33,950 nucleotides of DNA, taken from contig CAMEHL010000005.1 in NCBI GenBank assembly GCA_945917475.1, positions 1 to 33,950 of the forward strand. The letters are read 5' to 3'. Made by a program: the position numbers and the translations under genes. Within the stretch, counting starts at the first letter, position 1. The number at the start of each line of letters is the position of its first letter. This stretch comes from an uncultured Clostridia bacterium (lineage in GTDB: Bacteria > Bacillota > Clostridia > Christensenellales > Borkfalkiaceae). This document shows, piece by piece, positions 6,197 to 10,795 of the stretch. Under the pieces are notes generated by a model that worked only from the letters and a program-made list of their open reading frames with translations, ran no database searches and was not told the origin of the DNA.

Positions 6197-6214
6197 TAAA
6201 AACGAAAATAAGAT

Positions 6215-6362
6215 AAATATCCGGTAGGTAAGGCTACCATAGGGATACGGATTGCTACCGCGAAGTAGTGGAGACACTATAAGAAGGTCAAGAGATTTCG
6301 TCGAAACCAAGGCGTAATTTAACGCAGTTACACCGCCCTACGGAGTTAAAGCCAGCATGGTC
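6215..6362 (+). ncRNA. M-box (ykoK leader) Mg2+ riboswitch
   Basis: Diagnostic 'GGTAGGTAAGGCTACCATAGGGATACG...GCTACCGC...AAGGCGTAATTTAACGCAGTTACACCGCCCTACGGAGTTAAAGCCAGCA', directly upstream of mgtE. Confidence 0.93.
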
Positions 6363-6401
6363 GTTTCTTCGCGCGCCGCGCGGGGATTTGCTTTTACGTC
6401 T

Positions 6402-7879: not shown

Positions 7880-7909
7880 AAGTCCGACTTTTACCGTCGG
7901 ACTTTTTTT
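7880..7909 (+). terminator. mgtE intrinsic terminator
   Basis: AAGTCCGAC-ttttacc-GTCGGACTT followed by T-run. Confidence 0.85.
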
Positions 7910-7920
7910 ATTTAATACGC

Positions 7921-7949
7921 TTGATAAATATCTCAAAAAGTGCTACACT
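7921..7949 (+). promoter_or_regulatory. predicted promoter of the structured leader/sRNA
   Basis: TTGATA (7921-7926), 17-nt spacer, TACACT (7944-7949); predicted +1 near 7956, at the 5' end of the P1 stem. Confidence 0.6.
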
Positions 7950-7955
7950 GTATCT

Positions 7956-8154
7956 GCCAAACAAAACTTAATAGATTTTAAAAATGAGTAGACGAAGGAA
8001 TATTTTATTCCTTTTAACCCATACTCCCAATATCTCTATTTGTTAAAATGCAAATTTCGTATATTGGGAGAGTTTACTCACTCTATATAAGTTTTGTTTG
8101 GCGACAACCGAAATTTGCGTTTTAGTGCGTTAACTTCGGTTGGCGCACTTTTTT
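7956..8154 (+). ncRNA. candidate structured RNA / attenuating leader upstream of the methyltransferase gene
   Basis: P1: 7956-7970 with 8088-8102 (15 bp perfect); 7971-7975 with 8082-8086; 7985-7990 with 8075-8080; hairpin 7995-8002/8006-8013; hairpin 8024-8033/8061-8070; terminator at the 3' end. Confidence 0.65.
8125..8154 (+). terminator. intrinsic terminator with cUUCGg tetraloop
   Basis: GTGCGTTAAC-TTCG-GTTGGCGCAC (10-bp stem with two G-U pairs) followed by TTTTTT. Confidence 0.85.
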
Positions 8155-8195
8155 GTTTTAAAGGTGCGACTTTATTATACGAAAGGAGCGCCGAA

Positions 8196-9368
8196 ATGGG
8201 CAAAAACGCAAATTTAAGCAATGCCAAAAACGCAAAGAACGACGAGTTTTACACGCAACTCGCCGACATTGAGAACGAATTAAGGCACTATAAAGCGGAC
8301 TTTTACGGAAAAACCGTTCTCTGCAACTGCGACGACCCGTTTGAAAGCAATTTCTTTAAGTATTTCGCTATGAACTTTAATCATCTGCGATTAAATAAAC
8401 TTATCTGCACGAGTTACGACGATTCGCCCGTCGCATATACACAGTTATCCCTGCTCGACGATATCCCCGACAGAGTTATCCCTAACAGCGTAAGAAAAGC
8501 GTATAAAATAGAAATCACCGAAGTTGACGACTACAACAAAGACGGCGCGGTTGATTTGGCGGACGTTGAGTTTTTGCTTAAAAACGATAAAAACACTTTA
8601 AAACTGTTAAACGGCGACGGCGACTTCCGCTCGTCCGAATGTATAGAACTTTTAATGCAAGCGGATATCGTGGTAACCAATCCCCCGTTTTCGCTTTTCA
8701 GAGAATACGTCGCGCAACTGATAGAATACGACAAAAAGTTTATTATAATAGGCAATATGAACGCCATAACTTACAAAGAAATTTTTCCGTTAATTAAAGA
8801 CGGAAAATTATGGACGGGGTTTTCATTTAATAAGACGGTAGAATTTATTATGTCTGACAGTTATGAGTTAAAAGGAAAAGCGTATATCGACAAGCAAGGA
8901 AGAAAACACGGATTTGTTCCCGCTATAAACTGGTATACGAACGTAGATATAATTAAACGACACGAAGACTTGCCGCTATATAAAAGTTTCTCTCCGCAGG
9001 AATACCCTAAATACGATAATTACGACGCAATCGAAGTAAGCAAAGTTGCCGATATACCTTACGATTACGAAGGTTTTATGGGCGTTCCTATTACTTTTCT
9101 CGACAAGTACAACCCGGAACAGTTTGAAATAATAGGGCTGCTTCAATCGAGCGACGAAAAACTCGCGGGCGTTCCTATTTTGAGAATATATAACGATTTT
9201 AAAGAAATGCGGCAGGATATGACTTTTACGGGCTGTTCGGGCGTAAAGGCAAACGGTAATCCCGTACTTCCGGGAAAATCCCAAAGGGGTAATTTTTTAT
9301 ATAATCCGGACACAAACGAATATGTACATTCCGCTTACGCGAGAATACTGATAAGGAGAAGAAAATAA
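8196..9368 (+). CDS. adenine-specific DNA methyltransferase, M.EcoRI family
   Basis: ATG at 8196 with RBS AAAGGAG; 'NLSNAKNAKNDEFYTQLADIENELRHY', catalytic 'DIVVTNPPFSLFREY'. The ORF-track start at 8094 lies inside the leader RNA. Confidence 0.88.
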   Translation: MGKNANLSNAKNAKNDEFYTQLADIENELRHYKADFYGKTVLCNCDDPFESNFFKYFAMNFNHLRLNKLICTSYDDSPVAYTQLSLLDDIPDRVIPNSVRKAYKIEITEVDDYNKDGAVDLADVEFLLKNDKNTLKLLNGDGDFRSSECIELLMQADIVVTNPPFSLFREYVAQLIEYDKKFIIIGNMNAITYKEIFPLIKDGKLWTGFSFNKTVEFIMSDSYELKGKAYIDKQGRKHGFVPAINWYTNVDIIKRHEDLPLYKSFSPQEYPKYDNYDAIEVSKVADIPYDYEGFMGVPITFLDKYNPEQFEIIGLLQSSDEKLAGVPILRIYNDFKEMRQDMTFTGCSGVKANGNPVLPGKSQRGNFLYNPDTNEYVHSAYARILIRRRK

Positions 9369-10477
9369 TGAAAATCGAACTTCACGAAATTAAAATAGGA
9401 GAAGTGGTAGACGGTTACGTCGACAGTCAGGAAAACGGCGTGGTCGGGTACGGCGGCAAACTCAACATACGCCCCGCGTTTCAGCGCGAGTTCATTTATA
9501 AAGACGTTCAGCGTAACGCCGTTATCGAGACGGTGCTTAAAGGTTTTCCGCTCAACGTTATGTATTGGGTTAAAGACGACAACGGCAATTACGAACTTTT
9601 AGACGGGCAACAGCGCACTGTCAGCATTTGTCAGTACGTTACGGGTGATTTTTCGCTCGATGACCGTTATTTCCACAGCCTTACGAATACGGAACGGAGC
9701 AGCATTCTCGACTATCCCCTTATGATTTACATCTGCTCGGGAAACGATAAAGAAAAACTCGAGTGGTTCAAAACGATAAACATTGCCGGGGTGCGGCTTA
9801 AAAATCAGGAACTCCGTAACGCCGTTTACACAGGCGCATGGCTCTCGGACGCCAAACGCTACTTCTCCAAAATAGGATGCGTTGCGTATCTGCTCGCCAA
9901 CAAATACCTTATCGGCGAAGTGAACAGGCAAGATTATCTCGAAACCGCCCTGTCCTGGATTGCCGCAAAAGAAAATACGGTTATAGAAAAATATATGTCC
10001 GTTCATCAGCACGATTCGCACGCAACGCCGCTCTGGCAATATTTTCAGTCGGTTATCGCCTGGGTGAAGACCATATTCCCCGTTTATCGCAAAGAAATGA
10101 AAGGTTTGCCCTGGGGCATTCTGTATAACGATTACGGCGGCAACGTGTATGACCCGCAGATTATGGAAGAGAAAATCGCAAGTTTAATGCAGGACGACGA
10201 CGTAACCAGACGTTCCGGAATCTACGAATATTTATTGTCGGGGAACGAAAAACATCTCAATATCCGCGCTTTTTCGGACAACGAAAAGCGGCAGGCATAC
10301 GAGCGGCAAGGCGGAATATGTCCCCTTTGCGTCAATGAACACCGCGAAAAAACGCATTACGAAATAGAAGAAATGGAAGCCGACCACGTAACCCCCTGGT
10401 GCGAAGGCGGAAAAACAAACGCGGACAACTGTCAGATGCTTTGCAAAGAGCACAACAGAAGAAAATCGGACAAATGA
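9368..10477 (+). CDS. DUF262 (ParB/Srx-fold) + C-terminal HNH nuclease protein
   Basis: N-terminal 'IRPAFQREFIYKD...ELLDGQQRTVSI' DUF262 signature; C-terminal HNH 'CPLCVNEHREKTHYEIEEMEADHVTPWCEGGKTNADNCQMLCKEHNRRKSDK'; TAATG stop/start overlap with the MTase gene. Confidence 0.88.
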   Translation: MKIELHEIKIGEVVDGYVDSQENGVVGYGGKLNIRPAFQREFIYKDVQRNAVIETVLKGFPLNVMYWVKDDNGNYELLDGQQRTVSICQYVTGDFSLDDRYFHSLTNTERSSILDYPLMIYICSGNDKEKLEWFKTINIAGVRLKNQELRNAVYTGAWLSDAKRYFSKIGCVAYLLANKYLIGEVNRQDYLETALSWIAAKENTVIEKYMSVHQHDSHATPLWQYFQSVIAWVKTIFPVYRKEMKGLPWGILYNDYGGNVYDPQIMEEKIASLMQDDDVTRRSGIYEYLLSGNEKHLNIRAFSDNEKRQAYERQGGICPLCVNEHREKTHYEIEEMEADHVTPWCEGGKTNADNCQMLCKEHNRRKSDK

Positions 10478-10563
10478 CGACTCTATCCACCGTCCGCCCA
10501 TAAAACCGTATAAAAATCTTATTAGAAAAATGTTTATTTTTTCACGATTCGATAGATTTAAAC

Positions 10564-10585
10564 CATTACACGATTTCGTGTAATG
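10564..10585. repeat. palindrome CATTACACGA-TT-TCGTGTAATG
   Basis: Perfect 10-bp arms; core TTACACGAwwTCGTGTAA is shared with 10744-10783. Confidence 0.85.
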
Positions 10586-10743
10586 AGCATAATTATATAT
10601 AAATTAAGCATTATACAATCATACAAATTCTCTCATTATAAAGCCACTCACAAATTACACAATTTCTTTTAATAAAAATTGTATAAATAACGATTAACCC
10701 TGCACCTATAATACACATATCTACTGAAATATACATTTTATGT

Positions 10744-10783
10744 ATAATAACCCGTTACACGAAATCGTGTAACGGGTTATTAT
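10744..10783. terminator. 19-bp-arm palindrome, probable bidirectional terminator
   Basis: ATAATAACCCGTTACACGA-AA-TCGTGTAACGGGTTATTAT, perfect inverted repeat between the DUF262-HNH gene and the minus-strand lipoprotein frame. Confidence 0.7.
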
Positions 10784-10795
10784 TACGCATATAAG

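Follow-up and report, generated by a model that had tools for sequence, protein, structure and literature searches.

Transcriptional riboswitches and protein-controlled attenuators, such as the trp/TRAP leader of Bacillus subtilis and the ANTAR/EutV leaders, place mutually exclusive antiterminator and terminator helices before a gene. Restriction-modification systems are usually described with control by a protein, the C-protein. Among structured RNAs of about 200 nt, raiA (ModT) is conserved in many Clostridia (PMC11706538), and a phage-encoded AbiF system of Clostridioides difficile is reported to combine one protein family with its RNA (PMC12373285).

Here we describe a putative leader RNA ahead of a restriction-modification gene pair in a 33,950-nt stretch of DNA from an uncultured Clostridia bacterium (GCA_945917475.1, contig CAMEHL010000005.1), hereafter the window. 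Like the riboswitches and the TRAP and EutV leaders, it presents exclusive antiterminator and terminator helices before a gene, but it differs in a 14-bp loop-linker pseudoknot that seems to serve as an anti-antiterminator, and in that a single unit made up of promoter, RNA and terminator recurs before dozens of unrelated accessory genes in many gut Clostridia. It resembles raiA in size, structure and spread in Clostridia; however, the raiA Rfam family is not matched, and the leader occurs in many copies per genome, each with a different gene. In the AbiF system as here, a regulatory RNA accompanies a defence gene carried by mobile DNA of Clostridia, whereas AbiF is one protein family with its RNA and the genes behind the leader are non-homologous. 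Finally, the two genes in the window match the MTase_II and REase_II models for Type II systems of the M.EcoRI/GmrSD-HNH kind, but in contrast to the usual protein control, they stand behind a putative RNA attenuator and a hairpin over the ribosome binding site (RBS).

A structured RNA with its own promoter and terminator

An earlier note on this DNA had proposed a promoter with 17-nt spacing, a 15-bp closing stem, two hairpins and a 10-bp UUCG terminator followed by six U residues. All of these were recovered (Table 1), except that the terminator, present as described, includes two G-U pairs. The 199-nt RNA had a minimum free energy of -73.4 kcal/mol, compared with -32.6 ± 4.0 kcal/mol for 200 dinucleotide shuffles (z = -10.1), and when it was folded alone and unconstrained, the antiterminator formed while the terminator did not. 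The earlier note had recognized no known RNA family here and had listed an Rfam match to a known element among the outcomes that would count against it. No such match arose: neither the window RNA nor 34 further loci of the long and short subtypes (see below) matched an Rfam 15 family at gathering score; a lax search with the leader gave sub-threshold matches only. Within the window, Rfam matched only an M-box magnesium riboswitch (6213-6368), which precedes an MgtE-like gene. A hairpin with a T-run at the position upstream of the promoter was found in 74 of 130 copies, and the one in the window may equally be the terminator of mgtE. Two related palindromes of the TTACACGATTTCGTGTAA type lie between the nuclease gene and an MscL-like gene, at 10563-10586 and 10741-10788, the latter being terminator-like in appearance.

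Table 1. Features of the leader RNA region and the downstream genes (window coordinates)
Feature	Position	Strand	Details
Terminator-like hairpin AAGTCCGAC/GTCGGACTT with T-run	7880..7909	+	Directly upstream of promoter; read from sequence
Promoter	7921..7949	+	TTGATA 7921-7926, 17-nt spacer, TACACT 7944-7949; extended -10 TG 7941-7942
Putative attenuator RNA, from predicted +1 through the U-run	7956..8154	+	R1 match 7956-8153, E = 2.7e-27; fold z -10
P1 domain	7956..8102	+	Closing stem, GCCAAACAAAACTTA 7956-7970 with TAAGTTTTGTTTGGC 8088-8102
P1 domain, inner hairpin	7995-8013	+	Read from sequence
P1 domain, inner stem (hairpin 8024-8070)	8024-8033 with 8061-8070	+	Read from sequence
P1 domain, weak apical hairpin	8038-8042 with 8051-8055	+	
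Pseudoknot, apical loop strand	8045..8059	+	Pairs with 8109-8123, outside closing stem; covariation in 103 copies
Pseudoknot, linker strand	8109..8123	+	Shares 8109-8113 with antiterminator strand
Antiterminator, 5' strand	8105..8113	+	Partner 8134-8142 within terminator; covariation
Intrinsic terminator	8125..8154	+	8125-8134 with 8139-8148, UUCG loop, U6 (8149-8154)
Second hairpin GGUGC/GCGCC	8163..8192	+	Overlaps RBS GGAG 8185-8188
EcoRI-type adenine DNA methyltransferase gene	8196..9368	+	PF13651, E = 2.2e-138; PADLOC MTase_II
GmrSD_N (DUF262)-HNH nuclease gene	9368..10477	+	PF03235 and PF01844; PADLOC REase_II

A large family of leader RNAs in Clostridia

A DNA search of the host genome returned one full-length copy, which alone would have pointed to a singleton. 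With a relaxed E value, 43 of the 44 genus genomes gave matches, and many of these were strong. We then used a covariance model, R1, built on an alignment of 30 full-length copies and supplied only with P1, the apical hairpin and the terminator as structure. R1 matched 35 of the 44 genus genomes, with up to 8 copies per genome, as well as 168 of 301 genomes at the wider rank of family, 83 of 396 at that of order and 82 of 342 at that of class. Its E values, which are rough, went down to 1e-30. Most of the genomes searched were fragmented metagenome assemblies. Among 300 genomes sampled from the phylum, the host genome alone gave a match, and the RNA was not found in plasmid records. Weaker matches of 145 to 175 nt, in other families of the Clostridia, represent a short subtype that shares the P1-pseudoknot-terminator layout; it too is without an Rfam match and reaches 7 copies per genome (loci L374-L393). 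No description of such an RNA family was found in the open-access full texts searched. The RNA of the window thus appears, on sequence comparison, to be one member of a large and apparently undescribed family of approximately 200-nt leaders with hundreds of copies. Tandem arrays ahead of one gene were also observed, with three copies in L226 (701-1573) and two in L275 (701-1181), every copy with a promoter and a terminator of its own.

Promoter and gene spacing are maintained

The 130 best-scoring places were fetched with their flanks. A -10 box was present in all 130 copies and the TGn extension in 121, while -35 and -10 boxes occurred jointly in 121 of 130, compared with 8.5% at random positions. 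Spacing within the promoter was mostly 17 nt and the RNA started 6 nt past the -10 box, indicating that the promoter is part of the re-used unit. Downstream genes were identified with a simple rule. An RBS-preceded open reading frame of at least 40 amino acids starting no more than 63 nt past the terminator was found in 115 of 127 copies, against 12.9% for random positions within these loci, and a few copies had no nearby downstream reading frame. The median gap between terminator and gene was 21 nt, which is too short for a second promoter. A candidate mini-ORF within the terminator (GGAG and GTG) was dropped, since its start and stop differ between copies.

Competing helices covary across copies

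We aligned 103 copies with R1 and used pairing with a slid partner as the control. Covariation of the helices in related loci, which the earlier note had named beforehand as a test, was evident: 15 of the 17 paired columns of P1 had changed on both sides, and 99.5% of the terminator cells were paired. Two further helices, overlooked in the earlier note, were found. The 14-bp pseudoknot, which crosses P1, was paired in 92.7% of cells, compared with 28 to 65% with a slid partner, and seven of its pairs had changed on both sides; the antiterminator was paired in 94.7% of cells, compared with 23 to 68%, with 33 two-sided changed cells, for example, from A-U to U-A. Since neither helix was part of the structure given to R1, these counts are not circular. 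They are not fully independent, the copies being related, a kinship addressed by the slid controls and by the recurrence of helix variants in 38 sequence clusters. In the short subtype, the loop and linker sequences differ, with their complementarity kept. Within a genome, pairing within a copy was better than pairing between copies for both the pseudoknot (53 wins, 17 losses) and the antiterminator (76 wins, 26 losses), indicating that the pairing acts in cis; trans pairing among paralogous copies, being weaker, was rejected.

The overlaps between these elements define which can coexist. The pseudoknot shares 8109-8113 with the antiterminator and 8051-8055 with the apical hairpin, and it is compatible with the terminator, while covariation and folding both showed the antiterminator to be exclusive with the terminator. 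When the linker-terminator tail was folded alone, the terminator was open in 74 of 103 copies and closed in 29, whereas with the pseudoknot strand occupied, the computed folds had it closed in all 103. Median energies were -16.8 kcal/mol for the pseudoknot duplex, -16.2 for the antiterminator region and -12.6 for the terminator, values from nearest-neighbour folding that leave out co-transcriptional kinetics and pseudoknot loop costs. Almost all conserved nucleotides belonged to the switching strands or to outer P1, and the inner region varied between copies.

Proposed transcription attenuation and the alternatives

An intrinsic terminator lies between the promoter and the gene, on the same strand and with the gene start close behind. 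A cis-acting transcription attenuator is in our opinion the best explanation of the leader, and we hold it with good confidence as a reading of sequence data. RNA polymerase would start at 7956 and produce the P1-closed domain; the linker, once emerged, would pair with the apical loop to form the pseudoknot, removing half of the antiterminator strand, so that the terminator could form and transcription would stop at approximately 200 nt (OFF). Were some signal to hold back the apical loop, 8105-8113 would instead pair with 8134-8142, blocking the terminator and allowing polymerase to read into the methyltransferase and nuclease genes (ON). Given the shared strand and the computed closure of the terminator, the pseudoknot is best read as an anti-antiterminator, off when made and on when prevented, and most likely represents the OFF state in the folding model. 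We infer that pseudoknot formation is the regulated step, as well as the direction of the switch and the existence of a sensor.

What the sensor might respond to bears on a different reading, that of a small-molecule riboswitch in which the P1 domain or the pseudoknot would bind a metabolite and the helices described above would be the expression platform. A structured domain followed by rival antiterminator and terminator helices at the head of a gene is indeed the architecture of a transcriptional riboswitch, and several copies per genome would suit one, but the inner region is variable, no conserved core was seen outside the switching strands and the downstream genes share no common pathway, which leaves this reading conceivable although rather unlikely. 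Because the conserved nucleotides seem to fall almost entirely in the switching strands without forming a core of their own, we favour as trigger a protein, a further RNA or some general signal of transcription over a metabolite, this pattern making a classical metabolite aptamer less likely.

The earlier note had also offered a free sRNA, that is, a trans-acting RNA with its own promoter and terminator, the next gene being transcribed otherwise. This has become the weaker reading and we consider it improbable, since an RBS and start codon follow so closely that no space is left for a second promoter, and since the antiterminator covaries, which the terminator of an sRNA would not need. It would nevertheless account for the strong terminator and the separate promoter, for the tandem copies, which a simple attenuator does not need, and for a terminated product that would be stable at around 200 nt. 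The occurrence of near-identical copies before non-homologous genes, some within small cassettes, could also suggest a MITE-like mobile palindrome, with P1 as the terminal inverted repeat and a structure that matters as DNA; homology continuing beyond P1 on both sides, the fixed promoter and gene spacing and the deep compensatory helix changes across the class make this highly improbable. We give scarcely any credence to a leader-peptide attenuator or to the RNA partner of a retron, ToxIN- or AbiF-like system. Within the leader of the window, the ATG in AAAATGAGT could open a reading frame, but a leader reading frame with an RBS was present in only 25 of 103 copies and is not conserved; likewise, defence genes among the neighbours speak for an RNA partner, but the protein partner varies completely, the downstream genes being non-homologous, and the most frequent downstream families include no single recurring toxin or reverse transcriptase.

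Downstream genes and a second hairpin at methyltransferase genes

The window genes constitute, judged by homology only, a methyltransferase with an adjacent nuclease, as in a Type II restriction-modification system. The earlier note had suggested an attenuating leader controlling this pair; the leader part of that suggestion is strongly supported, while specificity for the pair is not, as EcoRI-type methyltransferases made up only 11 of the 111 downstream proteins in a Pfam search. The others included BspA-type leucine-rich repeats (12), zinc ribbons (7), Rho_N domains (5), Listeria-Bacteroides repeats (5), SPFH domains (3) and one each of TIR, C5 methylase and D12 methylase, many proteins being without a family; a simple lipobox pattern was found in 32 of 122 downstream proteins. 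Defence genes occur among the neighbours of the RNA. Eight related proteins of approximately 100 amino acids with a Rho_N-like domain and a GRP motif (L237, L265, L277, L285, L288, L292, L300 and L301) were the only recurring small nucleic-acid-binding targets and are possible regulators.

A GmrSD-type nuclease reading frame directly followed the EcoRI-type methylase in 7 of 9 full-length cases examined, four of them confirmed by Pfam, and a D12 methylase was followed by a TdeIII-type nuclease. In a sample from the family, the RNA was present at 9 of 30 EcoRI-type methylase loci, showing that the association recurs, yet neither partner requires the other. The second hairpin, GGTGCGAC...GGAGCACC, lay over the RBS in the window itself (8163-8192) and in 8 of 130 fetched copies. 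Each of these eight stood ahead of a DNA methyltransferase, of three kinds in total; L303 had the first half of the hairpin only. RNA and second hairpin were again found before an EcoRI-type methylase in a human gut phage record (MT835503.1).

Re-use and mobility of the RNA unit

Among pairs of copies sharing at least 80% identity over 150 nt, 121 of 132 had non-homologous downstream genes, including copies 98 to 99% identical from different genera. Homology between copies stopped right past the terminator, while its upstream end varied, up to approximately 110 nt before the RNA start. Near-identical RNAs before unrelated genes indicate a module that moves or is re-used separately from the gene it precedes. 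Copies 92 to 99% identical, in different species and before non-homologous genes, formed the groups L237/L238/L308, L240/L246/L259 and L231/L251/L323.

We lean, with some reserve, toward a gene-independent control module in which promoter, pseudoknot switch and terminator are re-used together and would put newly acquired accessory genes (restriction systems, surface lipoproteins and phage-borne extra genes) under one shared signal, giving a common RNA-controlled regulon of mobile Clostridia genes, its methyltransferase members carrying the second hairpin over the RBS. If so, a single family of RNA switches would govern some of the accessory genome in a large but little-studied portion of the gut microbiota, and the regulated genes would include restriction-modification systems, for which expression timing is a classic problem. 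This raises the question of a single signal answered by unrelated mobile genes, and annotation of the genes so regulated can start immediately with the covariance model.

Roughly ten RNA units sit in small cassettes with recurring ends inside host terminator hairpins. These cassettes (L308, L323, L246, L259, L399, L400, L402, L410, L411 and L413) measure 0.5 to 2.4 kb, carry varied genes and have the ends TAGGGATTTAAATT ... AAAAATCCCTA together with a right-end element of approximately 120 nt with two hairpins; the host hairpins are those of bidirectional terminators. No enzyme was identified in the cassette-like elements, and of the 44 genus genomes, 33 contained the right-end element, in most cases with the RNA absent from it. 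On the phage contig L373 (6439-7493), one RNA copy leads two genes for small membrane or secreted proteins, which lie, moron-like, among phage genes of the opposite strand.
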